The notes beneath the pieces are model-generated. The model saw only the letters and a program-made list of their open reading frames with translations. It did not search any database and was not told the origin of the DNA. Source: Lachnospiraceae bacterium (GTDB lineage Bacteria > Bacillota > Clostridia > Lachnospirales > Lachnospiraceae). From it: 64,000 bases of DNA. Every line of letters begins with the position of its first letter. The first letter of the stretch is position 1. Shown in pieces: positions 16,438-38,934 of the stretch. Location: contig JAFRRD010000039.1 of NCBI GenBank assembly GCA_017428265.1, forward strand, positions 1 to 64,000. Direction: 5' to 3'. The position numbers and the translations under genes are program-made.

Positions 16438-18360
16438 TCAATACTTCTTCGCGTCTTTGATGTGAGCAAGATGATCTTCCCACGCCGCGAGGTTCCTCGG
16501 ATTCTCCGAGACCTCAGTATCGCCCACACGCCACCAGGAGCCGTAGCCGTCCGTCATGGACTTGGGCAGGACGCGGATGTCGAAGACCACCGGAACGTCT
16601 TTGATCGTCTTCGCTTCGGCAAGCGCCGACGCGAGGTCTTCCATGGAGCGGACCGTAAAGGCGCGGCAGCCGTAGCCCTCGGCGATCTTCGCGAAATCGA
16701 CCGGCATGAAACTGCCCGAATGCTCACCGTCCTCGCCGCGGAAGCGCAGCTCGGTGCAGAGAGTGTCGTTGCCGTGGCCGACCTGCAGGTTGTTGATGCA
16801 GCCGAAGGAAGCGTTGTTGAACACGCAGACGTTGATCTTCTTGTGCTCCTGCACGGCCGTCAGCAGTTCGGAATGCAGCATGATGAAGCTCCCGTCGCCG
16901 ACCATGGCATAGACGTCGCGGTCACCGATCGCATATTTGACGCCCAGGGCGCCGGAGACCTCGTAGCCCATGCAGGAATAGCCGTATTCCATGTTGTAGG
17001 TGTCGATGCCGCGGGCGCACCACATGCGCTGCATGTCGCCCGGAAGGGAGCCGGAAGAGCCGATGGCGACGTCGTCCTTGTCGATCGCAAAGTTGATCGC
17101 GCCGAGCACGGCCGTCTGGGTCAGACAGGAATCCAGGTCCTTCGCAAAACGGTCCGCGGAGGCGGCGTTCGCGTCGTTTACTTCGGGCACATAGCCTTCG
17201 CCGTAGGCGGTATGGTGCAGGCGGTCAAGTTCCTTCGCCCAGCGTTCTCTTGCAGCTTCGATCTCGCCGCCGTAAGGCGCTTTATAGCCGTCCAGGGCAG
17301 CCAGCAGGGCCGGCAGGGCACGCTTCGCGTCAGCAATGACCGGCACGGCGTCCAGCTTCAGAGCCTGGAATTCGGAAACGTTGATGTTGACGAACTTCGC
17401 CCCGTCCTTAAAGAGCCACTTGGACGAGGTGGTGAAATCGGTGTAGCGCGTGCCGACGCCGATGATGACGTCTGCTTCCTTCGCGATCTCGTTGGCCGCC
17501 GAGCAGCCCGTCACGCCGATGCCGCCGAGGTTCAGCGGATGATCGTACAGAACGGCGCCCTTGCCCGCCTGGGTCTCGCCGAAGGGAATGCCGGTCGCTT
17601 CGGCAAAGGTCCGGAATTCCTCATGGGCTTCGCTGTAACGGACGCCCCCGCCGCAAATCAGAAGCGGCTTCTTCGCCGCACGGATCACTGCAGCCGCTTC
17701 GGCGATCGCTTCCGCTTCGGGAAGCCGCCTTGCGAGCCGCCAGACACGTTTCGCAAAGAAGGATTCGGGATAGTCATAGGCTTCGCCTTCAACGTCCTGC
17801 GGGATCGCGATGCAGACCGCGCCGGTATTGGCCGGATCGGTCAGGGTGCGGAAAGCCGAGATCATTGCACTCATCAGCTGCTCGGGCCTTACGATGCGGT
17901 CCCAGTAGCGGCAGACCGCGCGGAACGCGTCATTGGTCGAGATCGAAAGGTCGTTCACCTGCTCGATCTGCTGCAGCACCGGGTCCGGCTGGCGGCAGGC
18001 ATAGACGTCGCCGGGCAGGATCAGGACCGGGATGTTGTTCGCGGTCGCGGTCGCGGCGGCGGTGACCATGTTGGCGGCGCCGGGGCCCACGGAGGAGGTC
18101 ACGGCAATGATCTTCTTGCGCTTCATCTGCTTGGCAAAAGCCACGGCGGTATGCGCCATGCCCTGTTCATTTTTGCCCTGCCAGACCTTGAGGCGGCGGG
18201 TCTCCTGCCGGAGCGCCTGGCCGAGGCCGACCACGTTGCCGTGGCCCGGCAGCATGATCACGCCCTCGACAAAGGGATCTTCCTTCCCGTCATAAGCAAT
18301 GTACTGATTTTCCAGAAAACGGACCAGGGCCTGTGCCATGGTCAAACGGACTGTCTTCAT
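16438..18360 (-). CDS. iolD: THcHDO hydrolase (inositol catabolism)
   Basis: A 640-residue thiamine-diphosphate enzyme of the acetolactate-synthase fold. IolD opens the ring of 3D-trihydroxycyclohexane-1,2-dione to 5-deoxy-glucuronate. IolD-type features are the N-terminal [44 protein letters not shown], and the ThDP/Mg site [17 protein letters not shown]...NNASFG. The ATG at 18360 follows GGAGGG. It lies 23 bases downstream of iolB, in the pathway cluster iolG...iolE-iolB-iolD. Confidence 0.95.
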
Positions 18361-18383
18361 ATTTCCCTCCTTATTGCTCGGCA

Positions 18384-19175
18384 TCAGCCCTGGAAAATGT
18401 GTTCGTTGGCGTCAGCCTTCCAGAGCCATTCATGTGCTTTTTCATCAATGCGGGTCTTCAGCCACGGGTCGCCGTCCAGATGCCGGATGCCCCAGGAATA
18501 GCACATGGCGTAGCCGGGCGCCGCCGCCTGGGAATGCATGCCTTCGTTGATGACGAGGCAGCCGTTGTGGCCGGTCCTGTGAACCTCGCCGTTCGAAAAG
18601 CCGACGCCGAAGCCCTGCGGATAGTCAAAGCGGTAGAAATAGACCTCCGGCTGCGGATGGTAATGCGGCGGGTAGGAGGACCATTTGCCCGGATAGTTCA
18701 GGACCTCGCCGAGGACCATGTTCGAGAACGGCGCGTTGTCATAGTCGAAGAAGGTCTTGATCTCGCGGCGCATGCAGCCCATGAGCTCGCCGTTATTCCC
18801 GGCGTGCTGGGTCTGGACCGTGTCCGGCGTATAAAGCACCGGCTCGTAGTCGCGGTCGTTGTCCGTCTGCTGAATGTAAAGTTCCGCGTGGGCAAGCGCC
18901 TCGATCACGATCTTCGTCCTGCGCGGCGCGAGCAGGCAGTACGCTTCATAACGGAAGCAGTCGGGCCGTTCGGCCTCGGTCTTCTTATCGCCCCAGATCA
19001 GGCGAACCTTCCCCTCGAAAAGCAGGACGGCCGTCTCCTTCACCGGGTCCTCGATCGAATAGAAATCTCCGGCTTCCATGACCAGCAGGCCGACGTCCAT
19101 CTGCGTGCCGAGATCGTCCTTTTCCCGGTCGATATACACATTGTATCCGCGCTTTAATTCTTTCTCAAAATACAT
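18384..19175 (-). CDS. iolB: 5-deoxy-glucuronate isomerase
   Basis: A 263-residue double-cupin protein that isomerises 5-deoxy-glucuronate to 2-deoxy-5-keto-gluconate, after IolD. The cupin metal site [36 protein letters not shown] and the C-terminal [11 protein letters not shown] are visible. The ATG at 19175 is preceded by GGAGG. It sits 10 bases after iolE and before iolD. Confidence 0.93.
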
Positions 19176-19185
19176 GAAGACCTCC

Positions 19186-20094
19186 TTACAGCCCCGTATG
19201 TTCCGCGATGTAGCGGCGCCCCTTGACGGCATATTCCAGCGGATCGGCCTTCGCCGGATCCTGCTCCGCCTCGACGAGCAGCCAGCCTTCGTAGCCGGCT
19301 TCGGACAGGACGCGGAAGATCGGGTCGAAGTCCACATCGCCGTCGCCGGGGACGGTGAACGCGCCCTCGCGGACCGCCTTCAGGAAGCTCCAGCCGTTCT
19401 CGCGCACCTTCTGCACCACGGGCAGCCGCATGTCCTTTAAGTGGACGTGACCCACGCGGTCCGCATACTTTTTCAGCATCGCCAGCGGGTCTTCTCCGGC
19501 AAAGGTGAAATGCCCGGTGTCGTAGCAGAGAAACACGTACCGCGGGTCGGTGTTTGCCATCATGCGGTCGGTCTCGGCCGCAGTCTGGACCACCGTGCCC
19601 ATGTGATGGTGGAAGCAGAGTTTGAAGCCGCGCTCTCTTGCAAGCTTGCCGAGGGCGTTCAGCCCGCTGCAGAGCCTCTCCCACTCCTCATCATTCATCA
19701 CGTGCTTATGGCCGCCGGTGAGGATAGGGGTCTTAGTCTGTCCCTGGATCGAATAACTTTGCTCGGAGACATTGATGCGGTCCGCGCCGACGGCGGCGAG
19801 GAAATCCAGTTCCCGTGCAAAGTCGGCGAAGTTTTCCTCCAGGGGCTTCGTCAGCAGGAAGGACGAGAACCAGCGGCTCGCGATCCGCATGCCGCGAAGG
19901 TCCAGCTGCCGCTTCAGTTCGGCCGGATCCTTCGGATATTTGTTGCCGATCTCGCAGCCCGTAAAGCCGGCAAGCGCCATCTCGCTCACGGTCTGGCGGA
20001 AGGTATTCTCCGCGCCGAGTTCGGGCATGTCGTCGTTGCACCAGCCGATGGGGGCGATGCCCAGTTTCACTTTTTCAGGATCGAAAAGCTTCAT
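19186..20094 (-). CDS. iolE: 2-keto-myo-inositol dehydratase
   Basis: A 302-residue xylose-isomerase-like TIM barrel. IolE removes water from scyllo-inosose to give the trione substrate of IolD. Family marks include the N-terminal KLGIAPIGWCNDDMPELG, GCEIGNKYP, the metal-site HHHMGTVVQT, CYDTGHFTFAG and HVHLKD. It follows larA by 14 bases and precedes iolB by 10, so the three are one transcription unit. Confidence 0.94.
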   Translation of the reverse strand: MKLFDPEKVKLGIAPIGWCNDDMPELGAENTFRQTVSEMALAGFTGCEIGNKYPKDPAELKRQLDLRGMRIASRWFSSFLLTKPLEENFADFARELDFLAAVGADRINVSEQSYSIQGQTKTPILTGGHKHVMNDEEWERLCSGLNALGKLARERGFKLCFHHHMGTVVQTAAETDRMMANTDPRYVFLCYDTGHFTFAGEDPLAMLKKYADRVGHVHLKDMRLPVVQKVRENGWSFLKAVREGAFTVPGDGDVDFDPIFRVLSEAGYEGWLLVEAEQDPAKADPLEYAVKGRRYIAEHTGL

Positions 20095-20108: not shown

Positions 20109-21362
20109 TTATCTTCTGACCACTTTCGGGAGGGTCGAGCCGCCGTAGGGCATGCTCAAAACCCGCGCGTTCGGGCCGAGTTTTTCAAATGCGTGATCGA
20201 GCGCTGCCTGCGCCGAGGGCTGCGGGACCAGGAAGAGGGAACGGACAAATGCATCGTCCAGTTCGCTGACGAGGTCCACCTCCGCCCGCTCAAGCACCAT
20301 CGCGATGGCGGCCGCCTTGTGGCCGCCGAGTCTGAATTCGCGGCGGATCCGCTCGATCAGGGAATGCGCCGTGGGCGCCGTTGTCATCCATTCCTCGAAG
20401 GTCTTTTCGCCGAGGCCCTCACGGCAGGAACCGATCAGGATGATGATGCCGCCGTCCTTCACCGCGTGTTTCGCGTTGTCCAGTGCCTTCTGCGTCTGGT
20501 AGAGGTTCAGGTCCTTCGGCGCGCCGCCCTGCGAGACCAGGACGATGTCCGCAGCCTCCTGCAGTTCGATGCGGTAGAGCGTATCGAGGAAGGCGCAGCC
20601 TTCGCGGTGCGCAAGTGTCGCGTCGCCGGCCACGGCCTTCAGGATCTCCTTGTGTTCCGACAGGACCACATTCAGGATAAAATCGATGCCGACCGTTGCA
20701 CCGGCTTCCTCGATGTCATGACGCAGCGGGTTGTTGTCCAGCGAGCCCGCGCAGCACTCCGGCAGGATCATGCGGCTGTGGTTCGCCTGGATGGCCGCCC
20801 GCGTGGAGCAGCCGGGCATGATCGCCTTGGCACCGCCGGAATAGCCGGCAAAGTAATGGTATTCGATATTGCCGAGGCAGATCCGCCTGTCCGCCTCCGC
20901 AACCACTCTCGTGATGTCGACCGGCGTTCCGTAGAACGTCGTTCCGTAGGAGATGCAGTCGCCGGGATCGCTGTCGATGCAGCGGATCTCGCGGAAAGCG
21001 CGCTCGCCGGCGAGTTTCCTGTGTTCCTCTTCGCTCTGGCGGCGGTGGCTGCCGAGAGCAAAGACGAGGGTGATGTCCTCCGGCCTTGCGCCGCCCGCGT
21101 ACAGTTCATCCAGAAGCAGCGGCATGACCTTCGCCGTGGGCATGGGGCGCGTGACGTCGCTCGTGATGACGGCGATCTTCTCGCCCGGATGCACGATGTC
21201 GCGAAGGCGCGGCGTTCCAATCGGCTCGCGCAGGGCGCGGGCGACCTCCTCCACCTCCGAAAGGCCCGGCGGCACAGGGTTCGCATGGAGCTCCCCGATG
21301 AGATTTTTCTCCGGGACCTCCACCTCCTGAAAACCGTTTCCGAAACCGTAACGCAGCTTCAC
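20109..21362 (-). CDS. larA: LarA-family nickel-pincer racemase
   Basis: A 417-residue LarA homologue. All cofactor and catalytic positions known from L. plantarum LarA can be placed with an offset of about 5: SDVTRP (Asp69, Arg72), SHRRQS (His106), HYFAGYSGGAKAIMPG (His169, Lys179) and NHSRM (His195). Lys179 would bind the nickel-pincer nucleotide. LarA interconverts L- and D-lactate, but the family includes racemases and epimerases of other 2-hydroxy acids. No larB, larC or larE is seen here, so cofactor synthesis must be encoded elsewhere. Its place between pgk and iolE suggests a role in the inositol/triose pathway rather than general lactate use. Confidence 0.85.
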   Translation of the reverse strand: MKLRYGFGNGFQEVEVPEKNLIGELHANPVPPGLSEVEEVARALREPIGTPRLRDIVHPGEKIAVITSDVTRPMPTAKVMPLLLDELYAGGARPEDITLVFALGSHRRQSEEEHRKLAGERAFREIRCIDSDPGDCISYGTTFYGTPVDITRVVAEADRRICLGNIEYHYFAGYSGGAKAIMPGCSTRAAIQANHSRMILPECCAGSLDNNPLRHDIEEAGATVGIDFILNVVLSEHKEILKAVAGDATLAHREGCAFLDTLYRIELQEAADIVLVSQGGAPKDLNLYQTQKALDNAKHAVKDGGIIILIGSCREGLGEKTFEEWMTTAPTAHSLIERIRREFRLGGHKAAAIAMVLERAEVDLVSELDDAFVRSLFLVPQPSAQAALDHAFEKLGPNARVLSMPYGGSTLPKVVRR

Positions 21363-21434: not shown

Positions 21435-22694
21435 TCACAGCGGCAGTTTTGAGCCGTGGCGCAGAGCCTTCACGACCGGCAGTTCCTCGCCGCTCAGAAA
21501 GCGGATGAGTGCGCCGCCGCCCGTGCAGATATAGCCCATTTTCTCCGTCATGCCATACTTTTCCGTGGCGGTGATGCTGTCGCCGCCGCCGACGACGGTA
21601 AAGCCCGCCGTGTCCGCAAGCGCCTGCCAGACCGCCTTCGTCCCGAGTTCCGTCTCCGGCTTTTCAAAGACGCCCATGGGGCCGTTCACGAAAACGGTCT
21701 TCGCCGCCAGGATCTTCTCCCGGTAGATCTCCGCCGTCCGCGAGCCGATGTCCACTGCGGCTGCGCTGTCCGGGATCTCCCCTACCGCTGCTTCGCGGCG
21801 CTGCCCTTCTTCGGTCCAGGCAAGGTCTTCCGGCAGCACGATCTTTTCGCCGTACGTCTCGTAGAGTTCCTTCGCCTTCGGGTAGAATTCGGTGTAGTTG
21901 GACGCTTCGATGAAGTCCGCGCTCCCCTGCCCGATCTTCCGGCCGAGCGCGATCAGGAAAATATTCGCGACCAGGCCGCCCGTCAGGATCTCATCCGCGG
22001 TGCCGCGGGACAGGACCGTCTCCATCATGCGGAAAGCATCGGAGATCTTGGCTCCGCCGAGCACGAAGACACACGGCCTTTCCGGCGCTTCCATCACACC
22101 GGAGACCGTGCAGTATTCCTGTTCGAAGAGCCGTCCCATGGCCGAAGGCAGGACCTGCTCAAAGCCGCAGAGGCTCGGCTGGTCCCGGTGCGCGGCCGCG
22201 AACGCGTCGCAGACGTAGAGGTCCGCGAGCGGGGCAAGCTTCTCCACGAGCAGGGTCTTCGCCTGCTGCTCGTGGGAAAGGCGCAGTTTCATTTCGAAGA
22301 GAGTCTGCTCCTCCGCGACGAACCTGACGTTGTCCAGAAGGAGGATCTCCCCTTCCTTCAGGTTACGGATCGCCTCCCGGGCCGCGGGGCCGCAGACGTC
22401 GTCGATCCATTTCACTTCACGGCCGAGCAGTTCGGCAAGGACCTTCGCATGCGGCCTCGTCGTATAGAAGTTCTTGTATTCGATGTCGCTGCCCTGGTGC
22501 GCCATGAGCACGAGCTTCGCGCCTTTATCGGCCAACTCGCGGACCGTCGGCACGCAGGCCCTGACCCGGTTGATGCTTTTTAAGGCATCCTTTTCGCGGT
22601 CCACCGGCTGGTTGATGTCCACCCGGCACAGGACCGTTTTGCCCTTCACATCGATCTCATCGAGCGTTCTGATCCCGAAACGCAATCCAAACAC
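21435..22694 (-). CDS. pgk: Phosphoglycerate kinase, archaeal-like type
   Basis: A 419-residue PGK converting 1,3-bisphosphoglycerate + ADP to 3-phosphoglycerate + ATP. It starts with TLDEIDVKGKTVLCRVDINQPVD and has LAHQGSD, DDVCGPAAREAI, LLLDNVRF, CDAFAAAHRDQPS, FVLGGAKISDAF, FVNGPMGVFE and a C-terminal VVGGGDSITA. The wording of the N-terminal half is closer to archaeal PGKs than to the usual bacterial enzyme, although the judgement is from memory. It lies 63 bases after the type II GAPDH gene, suggesting the pair travelled together. Confidence 0.9.
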   Translation of the reverse strand: MFGLRFGIRTLDEIDVKGKTVLCRVDINQPVDREKDALKSINRVRACVPTVRELADKGAKLVLMAHQGSDIEYKNFYTTRPHAKVLAELLGREVKWIDDVCGPAAREAIRNLKEGEILLLDNVRFVAEEQTLFEMKLRLSHEQQAKTLLVEKLAPLADLYVCDAFAAAHRDQPSLCGFEQVLPSAMGRLFEQEYCTVSGVMEAPERPCVFVLGGAKISDAFRMMETVLSRGTADEILTGGLVANIFLIALGRKIGQGSADFIEASNYTEFYPKAKELYETYGEKIVLPEDLAWTEEGQRREAAVGEIPDSAAAVDIGSRTAEIYREKILAAKTVFVNGPMGVFEKPETELGTKAVWQALADTAGFTVVGGGDSITATEKYGMTEKMGYICTGGGALIRFLSGEELPVVKALRHGSKLPL

Positions 22695-22757: not shown

Positions 22758-23810
22758 TTATTTGAACCTTCCGATCTTCAGATATCTGTTGGTCTCGGCC
22801 GTGCCCTCTTCGCGGGTCAGCTGCATCTTCATCGCAGCGCGGATCGCGTCCATGGTCTCGGGGATCGTGACGCTCTCCTGCGGGATGTTGATGGCATACA
22901 TGATGTCGTTGCCGCTCTCCACGATGCTGTCTTCCCAAAGGCCGATCTCATACATGTCGCCGCGGCGGTTGCCCAGGTCGCGGGCATATTTGAAGAGGGA
23001 CGCATTGCCCTTGAAGCCCTCATCGATGGTGACGGTGCGGATACGCGGGTGCGCACGGAAGATCTCCAGTGCCTGCTCGCGGGTGATCTTTTTGCCGTCC
23101 ACGGGCGTCACGATCACGGTAATGATGTGGCCGTGGGTGATCGGGGTATGGACCAGGATGCCCGTTGCTTCCACATGCGGCATGATCGTCATCAGGTCGA
23201 GCGCCTGATGGGACGGGGCCTTGTCGATCTGCAGAGCGTTGGTCAGCCCGCGGTGATAGTCGCCCGGATCTGCCACGCGGCGGATGATCGTGATCGCGAC
23301 CTTCTTCACGCCGACCGCCCGATCGAGCGCGTCCACGGTGCGGATAAGGCCTGTGGTGTTGCAGCTCGTCAGTTTCAGGTAATCGACCCCCACGCCCTTT
23401 TCATAGTTGGCGTAGCCGTGGAAGAACACGTCCGCCACGGAATTGGCTTCGCCGCCCTGGAAAATGGCCTTGACGCCGAGTTTTTCATAGATCAGTTTGT
23501 TCTTCGCACCGACGCCGCCCGGGGAGGAGTCCAGCATGATATCCACGCTTTTGCACAGGTCCTCGAAGGTCCCGGCGACGGGGATGTCGTACTTTGCGAA
23601 GGCGGCGGGGTCTGCCCCGTCGACCAGATAAAGCTTGTATTCCACATTGTTCGCGCCGATCATATCGTTTTCACGCAGCGCGCGGATGGACAGCGAAGGG
23701 ACCAGATCGGCGATCCCGACCAGTTCCATGTCTCCCTGCATGGCGACGCCGTCCGCGAGGCGCTGCCCGATGGTGCCGTAACCGGCTACGCCGACTCTCA
23801 CTTTAGCCAT
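22758..23810 (-). CDS. gap2: Type II (archaeal-type) glyceraldehyde-3-phosphate dehydrogenase
   Basis: A 350-residue enzyme of the type II GAPDH family typical of archaea. The Rossmann start VAGYGTIGQRLADGV, the segment SSPGGVGAKN, the active-site SCNTTGL with Cys150, and the C-terminal GLWEDSI match that family rather than bacterial GapA (which has SCTTNC). The reaction is oxidation of GAP to 1,3-bisphosphoglycerate with NAD(P). It is followed directly by an archaeal-like PGK and preceded by iolG. Such enzymes are uncommon in bacteria, so transfer from archaea is a reasonable inference. It is probably a dedicated branch for triose phosphate from inositol breakdown. Confidence 0.9.
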   Translation of the reverse strand: MAKVRVGVAGYGTIGQRLADGVAMQGDMELVGIADLVPSLSIRALRENDMIGANNVEYKLYLVDGADPAAFAKYDIPVAGTFEDLCKSVDIMLDSSPGGVGAKNKLIYEKLGVKAIFQGGEANSVADVFFHGYANYEKGVGVDYLKLTSCNTTGLIRTVDALDRAVGVKKVAITIIRRVADPGDYHRGLTNALQIDKAPSHQALDLMTIMPHVEATGILVHTPITHGHIITVIVTPVDGKKITREQALEIFRAHPRIRTVTIDEGFKGNASLFKYARDLGNRRGDMYEIGLWEDSIVESGNDIMYAINIPQESVTIPETMDAIRAAMKMQLTREEGTAETNRYLKIGRFK

Positions 23811-23825
23811 AATTGGATCCTCCTC

Positions 23826-24842
23826 TTATTTAATCTCGTCGATCCGGACCGGGCGGCCTTCATCCATGGACTTTTTGCAGGCGATCGCCAGCTTCACGGA
23901 AACAAGGCCCGCTTCGATCCCGGCTTCGGGTTCGGTATCGTTCACGATGCAGTCGATGAAGCTCCTGATCTCCGCCTGGTAGGCGCCCATGTAGCGTTCC
24001 AGGAAGAACCAGAGCGGTTTTTCGGAAATGATGCCGTCCGCCGTGGAAAGCACCGTATTGTTCGCGGCGTCGTTCGCGCTCATGATGCTGCCCTTCGAGC
24101 CGAAGACCTCGCCGCGCTGGTCGTAGCCGTAGACAGCCTTGCGGCTGCCGTCGATGGTGGCAAGCGCGCCGTTTGAGAGCTTCGCGGAAATGACGACCGT
24201 GTCCACGTCGCCGGCTTCGCCGATGGCGGGATCCACGAGGTTCGCGCCGTAGGCCGTGAGCTCGACGACCTCTTCGCCGGACAGATAGCGGATCATATCC
24301 AGGTCGTGGATCATCATATCCAGGAAAATTCCGCCGGAGACGGCAACGTAGGCGGGAGACGGCGGTTCGGGATCGCGCGAAGTGATGCGGACCAGTTCCA
24401 CCTTGCCGATCTTTCCGTCCTCCACGGCCTTGCGGATCGCGCGGTAGTTGTGGTCGAAGCGGCGGTTGAAGCCCACCTGGTATTTGATCTTCTTCGGGGA
24501 GGCCTCAAGCGCAGCCTTTACTTCTTCGATCCTGGCCAGCGAGTGGTCGACCGGCTTTTCGCAGAAGACGTGCTTGCCGGCACGGATCGCTTCGATGGAG
24601 AGCGGCGCGTGCTGGTCGGTGGAGGCGCAGATGAGGACCGCGTCGATGCGGGGATCGTCCAGGATCTCGTGATAATCCTTCGTGATTTTCTCCACGCCGG
24701 CATTTTCCAGCCACGCGGCGACCTCGGGTTTCATATAGGGATCGGCGACGGCGAGGACTCTGGCCTCGGGAACGCCGGTCATGATGCTCTTCATGTGGAC
24801 CTGGCCGATGCGGCCGGCTCCGATGATGCCGACATTGATCAT
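23826..24842 (-). CDS. iolG: Inositol 2-dehydrogenase-like Gfo/Idh/MocA oxidoreductase
   Basis: A 338-residue NAD-dependent dehydrogenase: Rossmann GIIGAGRIGQVH, the EKP motif FCEKPVDHS, and the IolG-like GFNRRFDHNY, GGIFLDMMIHDLDMIRYL with the catalytic Asp/His. IolG oxidises myo-inositol to scyllo-inosose, the first catabolic step. The assignment to IolG rather than another family member rests on these motifs plus iolE, iolB and iolD downstream. The ATG at 24842 follows AGGAGAG. Upstream is a 220-base spacer full of REP-like repeats. Confidence 0.87.
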   Translation of the reverse strand: MINVGIIGAGRIGQVHMKSIMTGVPEARVLAVADPYMKPEVAAWLENAGVEKITKDYHEILDDPRIDAVLICASTDQHAPLSIEAIRAGKHVFCEKPVDHSLARIEEVKAALEASPKKIKYQVGFNRRFDHNYRAIRKAVEDGKIGKVELVRITSRDPEPPSPAYVAVSGGIFLDMMIHDLDMIRYLSGEEVVELTAYGANLVDPAIGEAGDVDTVVISAKLSNGALATIDGSRKAVYGYDQRGEVFGSKGSIMSANDAANNTVLSTADGIISEKPLWFFLERYMGAYQAEIRSFIDCIVNDTEPEAGIEAGLVSVKLAIACKKSMDEGRPVRIDEIK

Positions 24843-24867
24843 CTTTGTGTTCTCTCCTTTTATCCTT

Positions 24868-25057
24868 GTCATTCTGAGCCGCGGAGCGCCCCTGTCATTT
24901 TGAGGAGCGAAGCGCCCCTGTCATTCTGAGGAGCGAAGCGCCCCTGTCATTCTGAGGAGCGAAGCGACGAAGAATCTTCAAATCAACAGCAGGAAGATCC
25001 TTCGCTGCGCTCAGGATGACGGCCTTGTTTCAGATCCTTCGCTGCGCTCAGGATGAC
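24868..25057. repeat. REP-like repeat cluster between gpmI and iolG
   Basis: Four tandem direct units beginning GTCATTCTGAG (starts 24868, 24894, 24920, 24946; period 26) are followed by two identical 25-base copies in inverse orientation, GATCCTTCGC...CAGGATGAC, at 24996-25020 and 25033-25057. Direct and inverted units can pair into large cruciforms. The same family occurs at 31884-31954. No gene lies in this spacer. Confidence 0.87.
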
Positions 25058-25065: not shown

Positions 25066-26628
25066 TTATCCCTCGTAGACTTCGCCCTTGCCTTCGGTCA
25101 GGGAGCGGTAGGCCCGCTCGACCTTGGCCCAGTTCAGGTCGCGGTCAAGGGCCACGCCTCTTCCCACGCCGCTCACGATGGTGCCGGGCCCGATCGCTTC
25201 GATCTGTTCGCCGAACTCGCGGAGCAGCGCCGGCGCACTGCCGGGCTGGGTGGAGCGGCCGTCGAAGATCACATGCACAAAGACCTCATCCAGACCTTCC
25301 GCCGCCGCCATCTTCAGGACGCCGAGCGGGTAGTCGATCGAACCGTGCGAGGACTTCTTCGTCAGCAGGCCGATCAGATGAAGAGCGCCGCCGCGGGCCT
25401 TCACATCGCGGATGGTTTTCAGGAAAACCGGGTTCTCATAGAAGGAACCGTCCTTCATCGCGTTATCCAGGCGGACGTCGTCCTGCAGGACCACGCGGCC
25501 GGAACCGAGATTGATGTGGCCGGCTTCGGAGTTGCCGGTCTTGCCTTCCGCAAGGCCCACGGCGGGGCCGGAAGCATCCAGCTGCGCGGTCGGGTTTTCG
25601 CTGACCAGCGCGTTCCACACCGGCATCGGCTCGGTAGCGAGCGGATTTTCCTTCGTCGGGGCATCCAGTCCCCAGCCGTCCAGGATGAGGAGCAGGACCT
25701 TGCCGGTCTTTTCAAAGCCGAACAGCGGCGAACCGGTCATTTCCTTCGGTTTTTCCAGCCCCATTGCGGCCAGGATGGTCGGCGCGACGTCGCAGAGTTT
25801 TCCGCGGTTCGTCCGGCGGATGATCCCCTCGCCCACGGCGCTGATCGCGACCAGGTTCGTGGTATGCGCACCGTGCGGCTTGCCGTCGCCGGTCCTTAAG
25901 GTCTCGATGTTGCCGTGGTCGGCGGTGACAAGGACCGTATAGCCTTCCTCGCGGGCGGTCTTCAGGGTCTCGCCCAGGTACTTATCGACGGCCACGACCG
26001 CCTTGCGTTTGGCATCGTCGTTCGCCGTATGGCCGATGACGTCGCCGTTCGCGAAGTTCGTCACGATGAAATCGTAACCTTTGCGCAGGCCGTCAGCCAG
26101 GGTCTCCGCAACCTTCGGCAGGCTGAGCTCGGGAATGGTCTCAAAAGCAACGCCCTTCGGCGACGGGATGCGGATGTCGTCCTCGCCCGGGAAGGGGGTA
26201 TTGTTGCCGCCGTTGAAGAAGAAGGTGACGTGCGCGAATTTTTCGCTCTCCGACAGATGCAGCTGCGTCTTGCCGGCTTCGGAAAGGACCTGCGCAAGGG
26301 TCATCTGTACCTTCGAAGGGGCGAACGCGATCGGCAGGTAGGTGTATTTTTCATTATACATCGTCAGGATGACGAAATCCAGGGGATCGAGTTTTTCACG
26401 CGAAAAGCCGGTAAAGACCGGATCGGTGAAGGCGTCGGTCAGTTCGACCTCGCGCTCTCCGCGGCGGCAGCAGAAAATGACGCCGTCGCCGGGCTTAACG
26501 GTCCCGACGGGCGCGCCGCCTTCCCAGAGGTTCAGCGGTTCCAGATGGTAATCCGTCTTTCCGCTCTCATAGACTTTTTCCACGGCCTTTGCCAGGGCAT
26601 CGCCGCCGGCTTTCAGGTATTTGCTCAT
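25066..26628 (-). CDS. gpmI: Circularly permuted cofactor-independent phosphoglycerate mutase
   Basis: All parts of iPGM (3-phosphoglycerate to 2-phosphoglycerate) are in one 520-residue frame, but in rotated order. The chain starts inside the phosphotransferase domain (GTVKPGDGVIF, arginines 55-59), then the C-terminal phosphatase part: NFANGDVIGH (Asp196, His200), TADHGN (Asp237, His238), HTTN (His255), KPKEMTGSPLFG. It then runs straight into the normal N-terminus, LLILDGWG (Asp317), TGNSEAGH with nucleophile Ser367, and ends with the first half of the transferase domain (SSHGS His428, DGRST, GVGR Arg490, DRD Arg496). Metal ligands and the serine are kept; the substrate-site DGRDT reads DGRST. 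The start ATG has GGAGA about 12 bases upstream. It is six bases downstream of a HAD gene. Confidence 0.92.
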   Translation of the reverse strand: MSKYLKAGGDALAKAVEKVYESGKTDYHLEPLNLWEGGAPVGTVKPGDGVIFCCRRGEREVELTDAFTDPVFTGFSREKLDPLDFVILTMYNEKYTYLPIAFAPSKVQMTLAQVLSEAGKTQLHLSESEKFAHVTFFFNGGNNTPFPGEDDIRIPSPKGVAFETIPELSLPKVAETLADGLRKGYDFIVTNFANGDVIGHTANDDAKRKAVVAVDKYLGETLKTAREEGYTVLVTADHGNIETLRTGDGKPHGAHTTNLVAISAVGEGIIRRTNRGKLCDVAPTILAAMGLEKPKEMTGSPLFGFEKTGKVLLLILDGWGLDAPTKENPLATEPMPVWNALVSENPTAQLDASGPAVGLAEGKTGNSEAGHINLGSGRVVLQDDVRLDNAMKDGSFYENPVFLKTIRDVKARGGALHLIGLLTKKSSHGSIDYPLGVLKMAAAEGLDEVFVHVIFDGRSTQPGSAPALLREFGEQIEAIGPGTIVSGVGRGVALDRDLNWAKVERAYRSLTEGKGEVYEG

Positions 26629-26634: not shown

Positions 26635-27396
26635 TCAGTCTCTCCTTTCGCCGCGTTCCGGAAGATATTTCCCCTCGCCGGGGAAGAGGTCCAGCAGCTC
26701 GCGGAAATGATGGATGAAGCAGTCGGGCTTGTTCTCTTCGTTGAAGGTCATGGGCAGGCCGCCGGGATAGTCCGCCGCCACCGTGCCCGCAAAGCCGGTC
26801 TGCTTCGCGCCCAGGATGTCGCGCTTCAAGTTGTCGCCGACGAACACGCTGTCCTCGGGCCGCACGCCCGCCTCGTCCAGCGCCAGGAAGTAGATGGCCG
26901 GATGGGGCTTTCTGAGCATGGTCACGGAGGACTGCTGCACGGTGCAGAAAAGGTCGCGGATGCCGTCATGGTCCAGCCATTCGTCGATCTCGATCGTCCC
27001 GATCAGGTCACTGATGATGCCGACCTTGTAGCCGCGCGCCTTCAGTTCGCGGACGGTCTCGATGCCGCCTTCGACGACCACGCGCTCGCCCTTTGCGCGG
27101 CGGAACTGATAGGTCAGTTCCACAGCGTTGGCTTCGACGTAGTCACGGTCCAGTTCCGGCACCAGCCAGCGGGTCCACAGGACCTTCTCCGGCGCCTCGC
27201 ACATGAAGCGCAGAGCCCATTTGCGGTATTCGTCATAGCGTTTGTTCAGGAAATCGTAATATTCGTCGGGATCCATGTCGGTCCCGCAGATCTCCGCGAT
27301 GCGGGCGCGCGCCGCATGATAAAACGGCTCGTTCTCCTCCACGATGCGGAAGGTCCCGCCCAGATCCAGAAAGATCGCTTTGATATTTTCCAACAT
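26635..27396 (-). CDS. HAD-family hydrolase, tandem copy 1
   Basis: A 253-residue HAD protein with helical cap. Motif I is FLDLGGTF, so the nucleophile Asp is present but the usual second Asp (acid/base) is Gly. Motif II is GIISDL, motif III the Lys in LRKPHPAIY, motif IV FVGDNLKRD. The ATG at 27396 is chosen because AGGAGG lies 8 bases upstream; a GTG at 27402 directly abuts the SD and is unlikely. It is the fourth and last of four tandem paralogues, 2 bases after copy 2 and 6 bases before gpmI. A phosphatase is the likeliest role; the substrate is unknown. Confidence 0.87.
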   Translation of the reverse strand: MLENIKAIFLDLGGTFRIVEENEPFYHAARARIAEICGTDMDPDEYYDFLNKRYDEYRKWALRFMCEAPEKVLWTRWLVPELDRDYVEANAVELTYQFRRAKGERVVVEGGIETVRELKARGYKVGIISDLIGTIEIDEWLDHDGIRDLFCTVQQSSVTMLRKPHPAIYFLALDEAGVRPEDSVFVGDNLKRDILGAKQTGFAGTVAADYPGGLPMTFNEENKPDCFIHHFRELLDLFPGEGKYLPERGERRD

Positions 27397-27398
27397 GG

Positions 27399-28160
27399 TC
27401 ACACCCTCCTCAGTTTGTCCCAGGCCACGTGCGGTGCTGCCGGGAAGATCTCTTTCAATTCACTGAAGTCGAAAATGACGGCGTCCGGCCGGTTTTCATC
27501 GGTGATCTTTTCCTTCGCCAGCTTCTCGGGCGTGGTGTAGAGGATGAACATGCCGTAGCCGGCAAGGCGCGTGCCTTCGACGTCGCGCTTAAGATTGTCG
27601 CCGATGTAGACGCAGCGCTCGGGCTTCACGCCCAGGATCTCACAGGCCTTGTTGGAAATGGCCGGGTCGGGCTTGCGGATGCCTTCCACGCAGGACAAAA
27701 GCACGGCGCCGAAATACTTTTCCAGATCGTCTTTTTTCAGCCAGCGCGGGATCTCCTGCGAGGTGACCAGGTTGCTGATGATACCGAGCTTGTAGCCGTT
27801 CGCGTACATATCCTTGACCGACTGCGCGCCGTTCGGGGCCACCACGCGGCGGCCGTCCTTGTTGCGGTATTCGATGGTCAGTTCGATCGCATTCTTTTTG
27901 ATCAGCTCACGGTCATATTCCGGGGCGAGCCATTTGGTCCACAGTTCCTCTTCAGGCGCTTCCCGCATGGTCTCGAAGCACCATTTGCGGTAGCCCGCAT
28001 AGCGGTAGTCCAGGAACTTGCAGAACTCGTCGGGATCGCCTTTTTCGCCGCACATTTCGGCAATCTTGCGGCGGGCTTCCGCCTCAAATTCCGCGTCCCG
28101 TTCGACCAGACGGAGCGTGCCGCCCAGATCGTAAAAAATCGCATCAAATTCTCTTTCCAT
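27399..28160 (-). CDS. HAD-family hydrolase, tandem copy 2
   Basis: A 253-residue paralogue of copy 1, with shared wording such as RKW, EAPEE.LWTKWL and VGDNLKRD-type blocks over most of the length. Motif I is FYDLGGTL (second Asp replaced by Gly), motif II GIISNL, motif III GIRKPDPAI, motif IV YIGDNLKRD. AGGA precedes the ATG at 28160. It ends 2 bases before the chosen copy 1 ATG and starts 12 bases after copy 3. Close similarity to copy 1 points to a fairly recent duplication. Confidence 0.87.
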   Translation of the reverse strand: MEREFDAIFYDLGGTLRLVERDAEFEAEARRKIAEMCGEKGDPDEFCKFLDYRYAGYRKWCFETMREAPEEELWTKWLAPEYDRELIKKNAIELTIEYRNKDGRRVVAPNGAQSVKDMYANGYKLGIISNLVTSQEIPRWLKKDDLEKYFGAVLLSCVEGIRKPDPAISNKACEILGVKPERCVYIGDNLKRDVEGTRLAGYGMFILYTTPEKLAKEKITDENRPDAVIFDFSELKEIFPAAPHVAWDKLRRV

Positions 28161-28172: not shown

Positions 28173-28895
28173 TCATTTGAGCGGCGGGAAAATGTCCAGC
28201 AGCTCGGATATCCTGGTGATCGTGTAGTCCGGATGCAGGGTGATCTCCTGCGGTTCCTTCGCGATGGTGTCCGGCTCGTCGATGCGGATCATCAGGGCAA
28301 AGCCGGCGTCGCGCGTGCCCTGCACGTCGCGGATGGGGTTGTCTCCCACGTAGGCGCAATTTTCTTCCTTCTTGCCGATGGCCCGGCAGGCCAGATGGTA
28401 GATGGCCGGGTCGGGCTTGCGGATACGCACCTTCGAAGACAGGATCACGGCCTTGAAGTAATGCGCCACGCCGTCGGTGATCATCCAGTCGGGGATCTCC
28501 GTCTCCGTGATCGTGTTGGCGATGATGCCCAGGGTATAACCCCGGCGGTCCAGCTCGATGATGGTGTCCTTCACGTCCTCGCGCGGTACGCGGCGGCCGT
28601 CATGGTCGCGCCACAGGCGGGTCAGGCGTCCGGCATTCCTGCAGACCAGCTCCGGATCGTAGTCCGGCAGCAGGTGCTGGTTCCACAGTTCCATCTCGCC
28701 GGCATCGATCCAGGTCTTTTTGGCCTCTTTGCGGTACTTCGTCCAGTTCGCCTCCAGCTTCTCAAAGAACACTTCCTTCGGTTCGGTTGCACCGACGAGC
28801 CGCATCAGTTCGTCTTCGGCGGCGGCGATGAATTCTTTGTCGGGGATCACGATGCGCAGGGTATTGCCGACATCAAAGAAGATCGTATCTGTCAT
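28173..28895 (-). CDS. HAD-family hydrolase, tandem copy 3, with motif II Ser to Ala
   Basis: A 240-residue paralogue. Motif I is FFDVGNTL. Motif II is GIIANT, where the phosphate-binding Ser/Thr of the family is Ala. Motif III is RIRKPDPAIY and motif IV YVGDNPIRD. The cap includes WNQHLLPDYD, the position of LWTKWLAPEYD in copy 2. AGGAG precedes the ATG at 28895. With both the acid/base Asp and the motif II hydroxyl missing, catalysis may be slow or altered. It lies 40 bases after copy 4. Confidence 0.86.
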   Translation of the reverse strand: MTDTIFFDVGNTLRIVIPDKEFIAAAEDELMRLVGATEPKEVFFEKLEANWTKYRKEAKKTWIDAGEMELWNQHLLPDYDPELVCRNAGRLTRLWRDHDGRRVPREDVKDTIIELDRRGYTLGIIANTITETEIPDWMITDGVAHYFKAVILSSKVRIRKPDPAIYHLACRAIGKKEENCAYVGDNPIRDVQGTRDAGFALMIRIDEPDTIAKEPQEITLHPDYTITRISELLDIFPPLK

Positions 28896-28935: not shown

Positions 28936-29709
28936 TTATGTTTCCGGCAAAATGCCGTTGACTTTCCGGATAATGGCAGGCAGTTCGTCCAGTTCGCGGA
29001 TCAGGAAATCCTCTCTGGGCGCATCCGGCTGCCCGATGAAGGCCGCGTCGCGGTGGGCGATGGACGGGTTGTCGATGCGGACGGCCAGACCGAGCCCGGC
29101 ATTCCGCGAGCCCAGCACGTCGCGGGAGATCGTATCGCCCACATAGCCGGTCTCCGCCGCGGTGAGGTCCATCTTCCGCATGGCGATCTCAAAGATCCGC
29201 GGGTCCGGCTTGCGGATCCCCTCCGCGCTCGACATGACCGTGCATTCCATCAGGTCCGCGATGCCGTACTCTTCCAGCACGAAGGGAACCAGCGTCGTGG
29301 AAATGATGTTGGAAATGATGCCGAGGCGGATGCCCATGGCGTGCAGCTCTTCCATGGTCTCCTTAAGGCGCGGCCTGGGTGTGTTGATGACGCGTTCCCG
29401 GTCGTAGAAGAAACTCAGGTCCTCCGCAAACGGGGCGAGCTGCTCCGGTTTGATCCCGAGGCCGCGGAGATACCAGTCTGCCCAGATCTCGGGCTGCGGC
29501 AGTTCCCGCAGCGACTGCTCGCTCCAGTGCTTGTACTCTTCCGCATTCACGGAAAGCATGCTGCCGAGCGCCTCCGGGGAAAGCGGCAGGACGATGCCCC
29601 GCTCTTCCAGGATCTGCAGCAGACGGGTGCAGAACGTACGGCGGGACTCTTCGGAATGCCTCACCGTATGCAGTGTTCCTCCCAGATCAAACAGCAGCGC
29701 CCTGATCAT
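28936..29709 (-). CDS. HAD-family hydrolase, tandem copy 4 (first in transcript)
   Basis: A 257-residue HAD protein. Motif I is LFDLGGTL, motif II GIISNI, motif III GIRKPDPRIF, motif IV YVGDTISRD. The cap has EIWADWYLRGLG, matching the cap Trp motif of the other copies. The ATG at 29709 has a weak SD (AAGAGA). It is the first gene of the long minus-strand series and directly follows a strong promoter with a LacI-type operator. It is most like copy 5 (40837-41598), which also has VGDT.SRDV.G.R.AG. Confidence 0.88.
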   Translation of the reverse strand: MIRALLFDLGGTLHTVRHSEESRRTFCTRLLQILEERGIVLPLSPEALGSMLSVNAEEYKHWSEQSLRELPQPEIWADWYLRGLGIKPEQLAPFAEDLSFFYDRERVINTPRPRLKETMEELHAMGIRLGIISNIISTTLVPFVLEEYGIADLMECTVMSSAEGIRKPDPRIFEIAMRKMDLTAAETGYVGDTISRDVLGSRNAGLGLAVRIDNPSIAHRDAAFIGQPDAPREDFLIRELDELPAIIRKVNGILPET

Positions 29710-29930: not shown

Positions 29931-30941
29931 ATGGCTTCCGTGACTTTAAAAGATGTTGCCAAGGTCGCCGGTGTCTCCTACGCGACCGTCTCGCGCGCCG
30001 TTTCCGGCAGTCCCGAGATCAGCGAAGAGACCCGCCGCCGCATCCTGAAGCTCTGCAAGGAGATGGGCTACACCCCGAACTCCATCGCCCGCTCCATGGT
30101 CAAGCGCTGCACGAACATCCTCGGTCTGATCGTCCCCAGCCTGAATAACCCGTTCATGAGCGAGCTGACGGCCGACCTGGAGATCTACGCCCGCAACCGC
30201 GGCTATAATCTGATGGTCTGCAACTCCTCCTATGACCACGACCTGGAGCTGGAGGTCTTTTCCCTGCTCATCGGCCGGCAGGTGGACGGGGTCATCATGA
30301 TCCCCGTGGGCCACGAGCCCTACGATTCCCTGAGCGCGCTGACGCGCCAGGTGCCGACCGTCTTCATCAGTGAGAACATGCAGAACTATCCGGAGAACTA
30401 CGTCTCCGTGGACAATTACCGCGGCATGCAGATTGCGACGGAATACCTGTACGGCCTGGGGCACCGCGATATCCTCTATTTCGGCGCCCGTTCGGATTCG
30501 AAGACGCATGAGCTCCGCCTGGAAGGATACCTCTCCTCCTGCGAGAAGCTCGGCCTTGCGCCGCACGTTCTGCGCAGCAGCTATTCCCGCAGCTCGCGGG
30601 AGGTCGGCTATACGCTCGCGAGCGATTATTTCTCCCGCCCGCGGCAGGAGACTGCGATCCTCTGCTCGGCGGACATGCTGGCCATCGGCGTCAAGCAGGC
30701 CGCCTATGAAGCCGGGATCCGCATCCCGAAGGACGTTTCCCTGATGGGTTTCGACAACATCTCCTTCTCCGCCCTGCCGGAGATCGACCTGACCACGATC
30801 AATCAGCCCACGCAGCAGATGGCTACCTCCGCAGTCGACATGCTGCTGGACCACATCCGGGATCCCGAGGCGGCGCATACCCGCCTGATCCTGCCGCCGT
30901 CGCTTATCGAGCGAAAATCCTGCCGCCCGGCCAAGGTCTGA
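29931..30941 (+). CDS. LacI-family transcriptional regulator
   Basis: A 336-residue regulator. The N-terminal helix-turn-helix is VTLKDVAKVAGVSYATVSRAV with the hinge YTPNSIARSM. The periplasmic-binding-like sensor domain follows (LGLIVPSLNNPFMSEL, VDGVIMIP, ILCSADMLAIGVKQAAYEAG, PKDVSLMGFDNI). GGAG precedes the ATG. It is divergent from the HAD series and next to a sugar kinase gene. AAACGTTT operators of the kind bound by LacI proteins occur at its own promoter and at two others, making it the probable local repressor. The effector is unknown; a sugar or polyol is likely from the family. Confidence 0.94.
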   Translation: MASVTLKDVAKVAGVSYATVSRAVSGSPEISEETRRRILKLCKEMGYTPNSIARSMVKRCTNILGLIVPSLNNPFMSELTADLEIYARNRGYNLMVCNSSYDHDLELEVFSLLIGRQVDGVIMIPVGHEPYDSLSALTRQVPTVFISENMQNYPENYVSVDNYRGMQIATEYLYGLGHRDILYFGARSDSKTHELRLEGYLSSCEKLGLAPHVLRSSYSRSSREVGYTLASDYFSRPRQETAILCSADMLAIGVKQAAYEAGIRIPKDVSLMGFDNISFSALPEIDLTTINQPTQQMATSAVDMLLDHIRDPEAAHTRLILPPSLIERKSCRPAKV

Positions 30942-30991
30942 GCCGGAGGCCCCGAAACATAAAAACCTAAAAGAATGTGAGGCAATACCGC

Positions 30992-31870
30992 ATGTTTGAC
31001 ATCATGATCATCGGGCAGATCACCCGCGACCACAACATCGACTGGGACGGACGCGAAGAATTCCGGCCCGGCGGCGCCGTGACCTTCTCCGGCCATGCCG
31101 CTGCGGCCCTCGGACACCGCGTCGCCGTCCTGCCCAAGGGCGATCCGGCCCTCGTCGATCCTTATGAAGTTTTCAAAAACAGCAGAGTCGCCGGGATCTT
31201 CCCCGTCGCCTCCGCCTCGTGCACGGAGATGCAGAACACTTATTTCACCGCCGACCGCGAACGCCGCCGCTGCCTCTGCACGCGGATGATCGAGCCCTAC
31301 CGTCCGGAGGACATCCCGGAGGAGAAGGCCCGCATCTACCACCTGGCCGGGCTGGTCGCCGGCGATATCGGCCCGGACATGATCAAAGCCTGCGCCGCTC
31401 TCGGCGATACGGCGCTCGACGTGCAGGCCGTCCTGCGCTGCCGCAATGAAGACGGATCTCTCGAACTGCGTGACTGGCCGGAAAAGAAGGAATATCTGCC
31501 GCTCATCCGCTATCTGAAGACCGACGCCGCCGAAGCCGAAGTCCTGACCGGGACCGACGACCGTGAAAAAGCCGCCTTCCTGCTATGCGAATGGGGCGCG
31601 AAGGAAGTCCTGATCACCCACAATACCGAAGCCATCGTCTGCGACGGAAAATATCTCTTCCGCGCACCGCTGAGGGCCCGGAACCTGACCGGCCGCACCG
31701 GCCGCGGCGACACGACCTTTGCCGGCTATCTCGGGGAACGGCTTCACCGCGACATTCCCGAAGCCCTGGAATTTGCCGCCGCCCTCGTCTCCCTGAAGAT
31801 GGAGACCCCCGGACCTTTTATGGGCACGCGCGCGGACGTAGATCAGTACATCCGGGATTTTTACCGTTAA
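30992..31870 (+). CDS. PfkB-family carbohydrate kinase
   Basis: A 292-residue ribokinase-fold protein with the N-terminal substrate motif FRPGGAVTFSGHAAAALG and the C-terminal ATP/catalytic motif TGRGDTTFAGYLG with the base Asp. The ATG at 30992 is preferred, with GTGAGG nine bases upstream; a GTG at 30977 lacks an SD. It is co-transcribed with the LacI gene (50 bases apart). It could act as the 5-dehydro-2-deoxygluconokinase (IolC) step missing from the cluster, but it is shorter and not clearly IolC. The substrate is open. Confidence 0.85.
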   Translation: MFDIMIIGQITRDHNIDWDGREEFRPGGAVTFSGHAAAALGHRVAVLPKGDPALVDPYEVFKNSRVAGIFPVASASCTEMQNTYFTADRERRRCLCTRMIEPYRPEDIPEEKARIYHLAGLVAGDIGPDMIKACAALGDTALDVQAVLRCRNEDGSLELRDWPEKKEYLPLIRYLKTDAAEAEVLTGTDDREKAAFLLCEWGAKEVLITHNTEAIVCDGKYLFRAPLRARNLTGRTGRGDTTFAGYLGERLHRDIPEALEFAAALVSLKMETPGPFMGTRADVDQYIRDFYR

Positions 31871-37776: not shown

Positions 37777-38934
37777 TCAGTCGTCGACGCCGGCTTTATG
37801 TTTGGTCTTTGCGAACTTGATCAGTCTTCCTGTTTCTTTATTATACACGTTCATGCGGCCGGGGTGCAAGACCACGAACACCTTCTGATTCATATCATAT
37901 TCCACGAGGCCGGTCTGGATGGCCAGGAATTCCGTGCCGTCCACGGTCAGGGTGACCAGGGTCTCGCTGCCGGCAGGCTGGTTTGCGTAAACGGTCGCCT
38001 CGACCGTGTTTTTGTGGTGCGGGTCTTCGGTATAAATGTCGACCATCTCGGGACGCAGGCCCAGCACGCAGTCGAATTCCCTGCCCTGCGGGATCTCTTC
38101 GTCGAGTTTCAGACGGTCCTTCGTGAAGACGTATTCGCCGAACGCGCTCGTAACGTGCAGGTCTTCGCCGTCGAAGCGGCCTTTCGCCTCGATGAAGTTG
38201 ATGCGCGGGTTGCCGATGAAGTCGGCGGCCTGCAGGTCGATCGGGTTGGTATACAGTTCGAGAGGCGTCGCGATCTGAGAGATCTCGCCTTCCTTGAACA
38301 GGGCGATCTTCGTCGACATCGTCAGGGCTTCCACCTGGTCGTGGGTGACGTAAATGATCGTGGTGCCGGTCTCGCGGTGCAGGCGCTTCAGTTCCGCGCG
38401 CATGTCGATGCGCAGGCGGGCGTCCAGGTTGGACAGCGGTTCGTCCAGAAGCAGGAGCTTCGGGCTGGAAGCGATCGCACGGGCAATGGCCACGCGCTGC
38501 TGCTGGCCGCCGGACAGCTCGTTCGGATAGCGGCCGCGGTACTCTTCGATCCGCATGGTCTTCAGGGCCCGCATGACCGTCTCTTCGATCTCTTCCTTTT
38601 TCATCTTTTTGATCTTCAGGCCGAAGGCGACGTTTTCGAAGACCGTCATGTGCGGCCACAGCGCGTAGCTCTGGAACACAAGGTTCAGGCCGCGCTTGCT
38701 CGGCGCTTCGAAGAAGGCCTTGTCCGCGTCGATGATGGTGCGGTCGTCCATGGTCATCGTGCCGTGCTGCGCCTTTTCCAGACCGGAGATCACGCGGAGC
38801 GTGGTGGTCTTGCCGCAGCCGGATGGGCCTAGCAGCGTCATGAAGTCGCCGTCCTCGATAGTCAGGTTGATGTCGCGCAGAACGTGGTTCTCGCCGTAGA
38901 ATTTATCAATATGCTCCAGTACGATCTTGCTCAT
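37777..38934 (-). CDS. ABC importer ATPase (PotA/FbpC/UgpC-like)
   Basis: A 385-residue ATPase: Walker A GPSGCGKTTT (about 36-45), Q-loop FQSYALWPHMTVFENVAFG, signature [14 protein letters not shown], Walker B LLLLDEPLSNLDA, switch His IYVTHDQVEAL, and a C-terminal TOBE-type domain of about 140 residues. It energises the adjacent permease, 21 bases upstream. The FbpC/PotA class serves ferric, polyamine, sugar and sugar-phosphate importers. The N-terminus begins MSKIVLEHIDKFYGENHVL, typical of a start at 38934. Confidence 0.94.
   Translation of the reverse strand: MSKIVLEHIDKFYGENHVLRDINLTIEDGDFMTLLGPSGCGKTTTLRVISGLEKAQHGTMTMDDRTIIDADKAFFEAPSKRGLNLVFQSYALWPHMTVFENVAFGLKIKKMKKEEIEETVMRALKTMRIEEYRGRYPNELSGGQQQRVAIARAIASSPKLLLLDEPLSNLDARLRIDMRAELKRLHRETGTTIIYVTHDQVEALTMSTKIALFKEGEISQIATPLELYTNPIDLQAADFIGNPRINFIEAKGRFDGEDLHVTSAFGEYVFTKDRLKLDEEIPQGREFDCVLGLRPEMVDIYTEDPHHKNTVEATVYANQPAGSETLVTLTVDGTEFLAIQTGLVEYDMNQKVFVVLHPGRMNVYNKETGRLIKFAKTKHKAGVDD

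Follow-up and report, generated by a model that had tools for sequence, protein, structure and literature searches.

A circularly permuted family of iPGM-like proteins with a fixed substrate-site change in Bacillota and Spirochaetota

A rotated iPGM in a single reading frame

The window analysed here, a stretch of 64,000 nucleotides comprising bases 1-64000 of the 118086 of contig C36 (genome of 2.16 Mb in 52 contigs), carries on its minus strand (25066..26628) a gene for a circularly permuted protein related to cofactor-independent phosphoglycerate mutase (iPGM, GpmI), and it is almost certain that this gene belongs to a real permuted family. The open reading frame (ORF) starts with ATG and encodes 520 amino acids in a single frame with no internal stops. 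In HMMER searches the TIGR01307 model reached 464.4 bits against a cut-off of 330.65. This score is the sum of two rotated stretches, the best of which paired residues 12-303 with profile positions 213-504. Full-length homology to GpmI above the curated cut-off was therefore found in a protein that departs, by rotation, from the canonical linear order of phosphatase part, transferase domain and phosphatase part. The stricter model NF003897 scored 410 bits, under its cut-off of 862. The inserted transferase domain (iPGM_N, PF06415) was matched in two stretches, the best spanning residues 388-516 (profile positions 2-130 of 217), and so was the Metalloenzyme domain (PF01676). An HMMER alignment with PDB 1ejj (BsiPGM) equated residues 15-302 with 219-508 and residues 311-518 with 6-213, which places the new ends between BsiPGM residues 213 and 219, within the inserted transferase domain. 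A sequence-only reading of the window had proposed a rotated iPGM order in one 520-residue frame, with ends inside the phosphotransferase domain; a search against the iPGM families that allowed for a change of order returned two stretches in swapped order, the rotation is borne out by the TIGR01307, Pfam and 1ejj alignments, and the position of the ends agrees with the divided PF06415 match.

Three parts could be delimited. Residues 1-303 (25720..26628, minus strand) align with the canonical C-terminal part (BsiPGM about 219-508) and hold the metal ligands D403, H407, D444, H445 and H462, the equivalents of R261, R264 and K336, and an extra arginine, Arg55 (F260R). Residues 304-310 (25699..25719, minus strand), delimited from the alignment gap and a listing of the junction, form a new linker that connects the former C- and N-termini. 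Residues 311-520 (25069..25698, minus strand) align with the canonical N-terminal part (BsiPGM 6-213) and hold LLILDGWG, the phospho-serine motif GNSEAGH, DGRST and GVGRGVALDRD; TADHGN was also found in the protein. Ser367 (25528..25530, minus strand) is the equivalent of the phosphorylated Ser62, and Ser459 of DGRST (25252..25254, minus strand) that of Asp154. By alignment to solved chains, on which the domain topology is based, the phosphatase domain is predicted to be continuous and to divide the transferase domain in two, an inversion of the usual arrangement.

Compared with canonical iPGM (TIGR01307; PDB 1ejj, 2ify and 5kgn), the permuted protein thus shares whole-length homology, the serine and the metal ligands, but its halves are swapped and it has the phosphatase domain inserted in the transferase domain rather than the transferase domain in the phosphatase domain. 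No description of a permuted iPGM was found in the literature searched, among the matches listed, in keeping with the earlier impression that the arrangement was undescribed; PMC2964296 contains no word starting with "permut", and the part of PMC2876114 consulted has glutathione synthetase as its subject.

Relatives of the permuted protein

Permuted relatives were identified in the Bacillota and Spirochaetota, at 38-93% identity. Within the genus, a full-length permuted gene was present in six of 16 genomes; the same rotation with the same break was thus seen in five of the 15 further genomes, at 90-93% identity to the window's protein, and a six-way alignment had a mean column identity of 96%. 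In one genus genome (G133), a contig begins with another incomplete iPGM fragment, which covers residues 140-311 at 44% identity. At the family level, 116 of 120 genomes gave a match, only the window genome gave a one-piece rotated match, and the best score elsewhere (E 9.8e-69) covered one half only.

Two short peptides served as queries against named genomes, a procedure that finds close relatives, and matched 21 loci: 18 full-length permuted genes, two cut at a contig start (L053 and L054) and one chimera (L059). The record titles included Lachnospiraceae, Clostridia, Oscillospiraceae, Peptococcaceae, Spirochaetales and Sphaerochaetaceae among others, several records came from the rumen, abomasum, ileum or faeces of herbivores, and six of the loci were spirochaetal (L048, L049 and L051-L054). 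More distant relatives were sought with a profile built from 19 sequences (A2), at a threshold of E up to 1e-100 in the phylum scans. It matched 12 of 398 genomes of the phylum, of which the 11 besides the window's own were 38-43% identical (one of these loci, L074, runs off the end of its contig), and at the same threshold one of 247 genomes drawn from the spirochaete phylum, this being the centre genome itself. Wide presence in spirochaetes was accordingly rejected. In family f65 the permuted gene was found in five of nine genomes, and in the order of G383 in four of 12. The distribution is therefore patchy, spirochaetes included. Among plasmids, 45 records matched, all below 60% identity. 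A viral or phage origin was also rejected, as a scan of viral contigs matched 95 stretches and no relatives. A second permuted copy within one genome (L099; G538:C8:6491-8056) branches deeply in the tree, on the side of the main clade.

One explanation that has to be weighed for any rotated gene is an artefact, whether assembly rotation, frameshift or chimeric contig, and one relative is indeed chimeric. At a contig start in G120 (L038/L059, UBA6987), a permuted head meets a canonical tail at KYAHVTFFFNGG, a conserved stretch. Identity to genus members is 89-91% for the head; the tail reaches 68% against a Parabacteroides iPGM and only 42% against the window protein, for which reason this contig is read as a metagenome chimera with a Bacteroidota-like canonical iPGM tail. 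Against an artefact in general stand 33 distinct permuted sequences, drawn from many different assemblies and alike in their break and linker position, and a stop codon of the upstream phosphatase gene that overlaps the permuted start or lies no more than 25 nt from it. Selection points the same way: dN/dS was 0.04-0.13 wherever dS was finite among seven sequences (the window's, L042-L045, L047 and L048), the most distant pairs being saturated, and the family is under purifying selection. For the window gene an artefact is already refuted by its relatives, and in our estimation its probability is negligible. The earlier argument that neither frameshift nor assembly error could explain a rotated order was correct in this respect, and the relatives sharing that order now comprise five genus genomes, 20 of the 21 named-scan loci and 11 further genomes of the phylum.

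Phylogeny and copy number

The phylogeny was inferred with a quick method and midpoint rooting, after the permuted sequences had been rotated back to canonical order. The 52 rows (26 permuted and 26 canonical) were picked from 33 permuted and 44 canonical sequences, with near-copies, partial and surplus rows dropped. Permuted and canonical sequences separated in a clean split (SH-aLRT 100) that requires one change of state, and the permuted and canonical copies of the window's own genome fell on opposite sides of it. The permuted sequences form one clade, best read as a single old iPGM branch, circularly permuted once. No unrotated sister bearing the altered active-site signature turned up in a limited sample. 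When a C-terminal-half profile was run against 341 genomes of the class, the window gene scored 323 bits and any other genome at most 241 bits; the 19 best other matches were all in canonical order with DGRD. In the class of G257, only the three genomes already known to be permuted, of 17, passed E 1e-50.

The window's genome also encodes a canonical iPGM, located on the same contig as the permuted gene (C36:69760-71274). A canonical copy was present in 22 of the 29 permuted-gene genomes examined (five of six in the genus, nine of 12 named relatives, where that of G532 is divergent, and eight of 11 divergent genomes), and the permuted gene is therefore usually an extra paralogue. The other seven (G122, G533, G534, G541, G183, G257 and G519) encode the permuted iPGM only.

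Active-site residues

Active-site positions were tabulated for 33 distinct permuted and 44 canonical sequences, using BsiPGM numbering taken from the 1ejj rows. The residues that we take to be the phospho-serine and di-metal site of iPGM (S62, D12, D403, H407, D444, H445 and H462) were retained in all 33 permuted sequences, as the first reading of the window's protein had anticipated. The substrate site of BsiPGM presumably comprises H123, R153, D154, R185, R191, R261, R264 and K336, and all of this set save D154 is kept, as in canonical iPGM: H123, R261, R264 and K336 in 33/33, R153 and R185 in all 32 sequences with a residue there, and R191 in 31 of 32, the exception (L037) having leucine.

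Residue 154 is serine in 32/32 permuted sequences (one being truncated) and aspartate in 44/44 canonical ones; residue 260 is arginine in 33/33 permuted sequences and phenylalanine or tyrosine in 44/44 canonical ones. N259 is replaced by cysteine, G121 and V122 by serine and A265 by glutamate, each in 33/33. The changes D154S, F260R, N259C and V122S occur in every permuted sequence with a residue there and are absent from the 44 canonical sequences; S124G and M189L further distinguish the permuted protein from canonical iPGM. Position 120 is lysine or arginine in 30 of 33, and the divergent clades do not share the Lys-Lys pair that adjoins His123 in the main clade. Across all loci, gene repeats included, DGRD stands in 73 ORF records of canonical order and DGRS in 64 of permuted order, a further permuted record being cut before the motif. 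The DGRDT to DGRST substitution first noticed in the window's protein is thus a fixed family trait, accompanied by F260R, N259C, G121S, V122S and others, and the comparison argues that the substrate pocket of the permuted family has undergone a fixed change together with the rotation.

Gene neighbourhood in the window's clade

On the minus strand of the window the permuted gene follows four haloacid dehalogenase-type (HAD) phosphatase genes, designated h4 (28936..29709), h3 (28173..28895), h2 (27399..28160) and h1 (26635..27402, directly upstream of the permuted gene), and is itself followed by genes for IolG (inositol 2-dehydrogenase, 23826..24872; TIGR04380, above cut-off), a type II (archaeal-type) glyceraldehyde-3-phosphate dehydrogenase (GAPDH-II, 22758..23810), a phosphoglycerate kinase (PGK)-like protein whose nearest solved chain is 2cun (21435..22694), a LarA-family racemase (20109..21362; LarAH6 model, above cut-off), IolE (inosose dehydratase, 19186..20094), an IolB-like protein (18384..19337; below the NCBIfam cut-off and above that of Pfam for KduI/IolB, the ORF as drawn overlapping iolE) and IolD (trihydroxycyclohexanedione hydrolase, 16438..18384). 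Divergently oriented on the plus strand are a LacI-family regulator (29931..30941) and a PfkB kinase (30977..31870) homologous to TM0415, a PPi-dependent myo-inositol kinase. Further along, again on the minus strand, lie an ABC solute-binding protein (36424..37737), an ABC ATPase (37777..38934) and a fused ABC permease of 613 amino acids (38956..40797), adjoined by a fifth HAD phosphatase (40837..41598).

Comparison of the neighbourhoods of relatives showed that a HAD gene lies directly upstream of the permuted gene in all 20 window-clade loci with upstream DNA (chimera L059 included), the distance from HAD end to permuted start being -25 to +25 nt for the ORFs as drawn. In a survey of 22 loci, many of them cut, HAD genes were found in 20 (the other two having no upstream DNA), LacI and PfkB in 13, the ABC ATPase in nine, IolG in nine and GAPDH-II in seven. 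The four HADs have their own motif variants and keep the same order wherever four are present; of 1216 cross-locus comparisons, 881 placed the best match of a HAD at its own tandem position and 335 placed it elsewhere.

The kinase of Thermotoga maritima, TM0415 (PDB 5ysp), phosphorylates myo-inositol with PPi, has a high Km for inositol, may have another true acceptor, and is encoded in an inositol operon for which the part of the source consulted mentions no rotated iPGM (PMC5931981). All 13 neighbour kinases keep the four inositol contacts of TM0415 (D11, N78, Q141 and R145) as well as K171, R229, R232, M266 and D234. They differ from it at F221 of the PPi signature, which is leucine or isoleucine in 13/13; four of the five PPi-signature residues are kept.

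Several other features of these loci were recorded. The match to the LarAH6-type nickel-dependent malate racemase model inside an inositol operon (window 20109-21362, minus strand) recurs in this genus and in L047, and the archaeal-type GAPDH-II and the PGK nearest 2cun are paired within the inositol operon (window 21435-23810, minus strand). An ORF of 641 amino acids at 32885-34810 (minus strand), with no Pfam match at E 1e-5, is present in four other loci. A PHP-domain gene adjoins the LacI and PfkB genes at L042:4993-5700 (minus strand) and in seven other loci, and was not found in the window cluster. In spirochaete loci a CNNM/CorC-type gene pair lies downstream of the permuted gene (L048:11697-14329), and MgtC and CNNM-type genes occur nearby in some loci.

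Gene neighbourhoods in the divergent clades

A different arrangement was found in L075, L077 and L080, which represent three families: a GntR-like gene, a gene for a protein of 443-459 amino acids, a solute-binding protein, a fused permease, an ATPase and the permuted iPGM. This order was judged by ORF sizes and starts, families being tested for L075 only. The 459-residue protein of L075 (L075:4143-5519), which had no Pfam or NCBIfam match at E 0.001, aligned over residues 14-452 with the cyclic 2,3-diphosphoglycerate synthetase (cDPGS) 9sxb at 437.8 bits and is thus homologous to a solved cDPGS over nearly its full length; the places of the cDPGS genes in L077 and L080 were confirmed. The L075 protein thus resembles the archaeal cDPGS (PDB 8ork and 9sxb) and differs in being a bacterial homologue whose operon also includes an ABC importer and a permuted iPGM. 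The part of PMC10690619 consulted describes the cDPGS product as found exclusively in hyperthermophilic methanogens.

A cDPGS homologue was present in six of 25 genomes searched (G170, G183, G257, G383, G407 and G519), all of which have the permuted gene, and was absent from three congeners of G257 that do not (G222, G339 and G314). It was not found in G359, which has the permuted gene, nor in four family-65, four window-genus and seven main-clade genomes. In family f65 (L078, L079 and L081) the permuted gene has a RapZ-like gene nearby and, in L078 and by resemblance in L081, a phosphosugar mutase beside it. The two main neighbourhood types suggest different substrates, and the family-65 loci fit neither.

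Proposed function

The iPGM reaction is described as acting through phosphorylation of the serine, reorientation of the substrate and closure of the domains; the accounts consulted, of this mechanism and of an inhibitor, do not deal with residue 154. Given the retained serine and metal ligands, the permuted protein is very likely a phosphoserine phosphotransferase or phosphatase, in which the serine would take up a phosphate from the substrate and hand it on either to a second hydroxyl or to water. Its main substrate is probably one other than 3PG or 2PG. The replacement of D154 by serine and of F260 by arginine, with lysine or arginine at position 120, could provide both room and charge for a second phosphate, which would sit where iPGM holds a free hydroxyl; with such a second-phosphate pocket (Ser154 and Arg260), the permuted enzyme would therefore serve vicinal, multiply phosphorylated compounds. 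As the best explanation overall we propose an old permuted branch of iPGM with phospho-serine chemistry and substrates of this kind, a reading to which we give about an even chance.

The expectation that the protein would simply be an active phosphoglycerate mutase found no support in the comparisons made here, in view of the fixed site changes, the canonical copy in 22/29 genomes and neighbours that suggest another or a wider substrate, since those conserved around it are HADs and genes of inositol phosphorylation and catabolism and, elsewhere, cDPGS and an ABC importer. An ordinary, if permuted, mutase isozyme could nonetheless complete a private lower glycolysis (GAPDH-II, PGK and PGM) for inositol-derived triose, the site changes being tolerated drift. 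Such an isozyme would be consistent with the GAPDH-II and PGK genes that share the operon in the window's genus and in L047, and with the TIGR01307 score (464 bits against a cut-off of 330.65), and a plain mutase is possible for the seven of 29 genomes without a canonical iPGM. Against it, D154S, F260R, N259C and V122S are fixed in the permuted sequences and absent from all 44 canonical ones, most of the genomes already have a canonical mutase, and a HAD immediately precedes the permuted gene in every one of the 20 testable loci, whereas 15 of 22, some of them cut short, showed no GAPDH-II. We regard this alternative as unlikely.

In the window's operon, inositol phosphates would be the likeliest substrates, with four or five HADs and a probably PPi-dependent inositol kinase feeding IolG, IolE, IolD and IolB. 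For the window's clade we hold this assignment tentatively, as a possibility somewhat short of even; the presence of GAPDH-II and PGK in the same operon, the sighting of IolG in only 9/22 loci (several of the loci being cut), the high Km of TM0415 for inositol and the leucine or isoleucine at F221 count against it. In the cDPGS-linked clade the substrate would be 2,3-diphosphoglycerate (2,3-DPG). That compound might alternatively be the substrate in all clades, the enzyme acting as a phosphatase, or as a dismutase forming 2,3-DPG from two phosphoglycerates, tied to the salvage or synthesis of cyclic 2,3-DPG. The gene order shared by L075, L077 and L080, the confinement of cDPGS, among the genomes searched, to those with the permuted gene and its absence from the three congeners lacking it are in agreement with this, as would be a second-phosphate pocket created by D154S and F260R. 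The window-genus, main-clade and family-65 genomes searched and G359 have no cDPGS, however, and it is inositol genes that accompany the main clade, so that we consider one 2,3-DPG enzyme throughout the family improbable.

A more ambitious form of the inositol-phosphate reading, which we hold to be doubtful, is that the locus is an intracellular machine that dismantles inositol polyphosphates (phytate) in gut bacteria and supplies their inositol catabolism, while in other lineages this rotated scaffold would serve 2,3- and cyclic diphosphoglycerate. Its parts would be the ABC importer, four or five position-specific HADs in fixed order, a PPi-using inositol kinase and the inside-out iPGM, which would move or remove phosphate between neighbouring ring positions (an inositol-phosphate phosphomutase or phosphatase). 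No bacterial pathway joining phytate with HADs and ABC transporters was found among the matches listed (PMC6355987 and the part of PMC12136491 consulted).

Implications

As summarised above, the permuted gene differs from canonical iPGM also in its HAD or cDPGS neighbourhood and in usually being a second copy beside a canonical one. To our knowledge, enzymes of central metabolism have seldom been found circularly permuted in nature. In this family the permutation coincides with an inverted domain insertion and a fixed substrate-site change, across at least two phyla, and the link between topology and function is therefore directly testable by swapping the order. There is also a warning for annotation, as TIGR01307 names the permuted proteins phosphoglycerate mutase. 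Finally, the permuted loci point to bacterial homologues of cyclic-diphosphoglycerate synthetase, and that of the window to a possible, as yet undescribed, route of phosphate-ester metabolism in gut bacteria.
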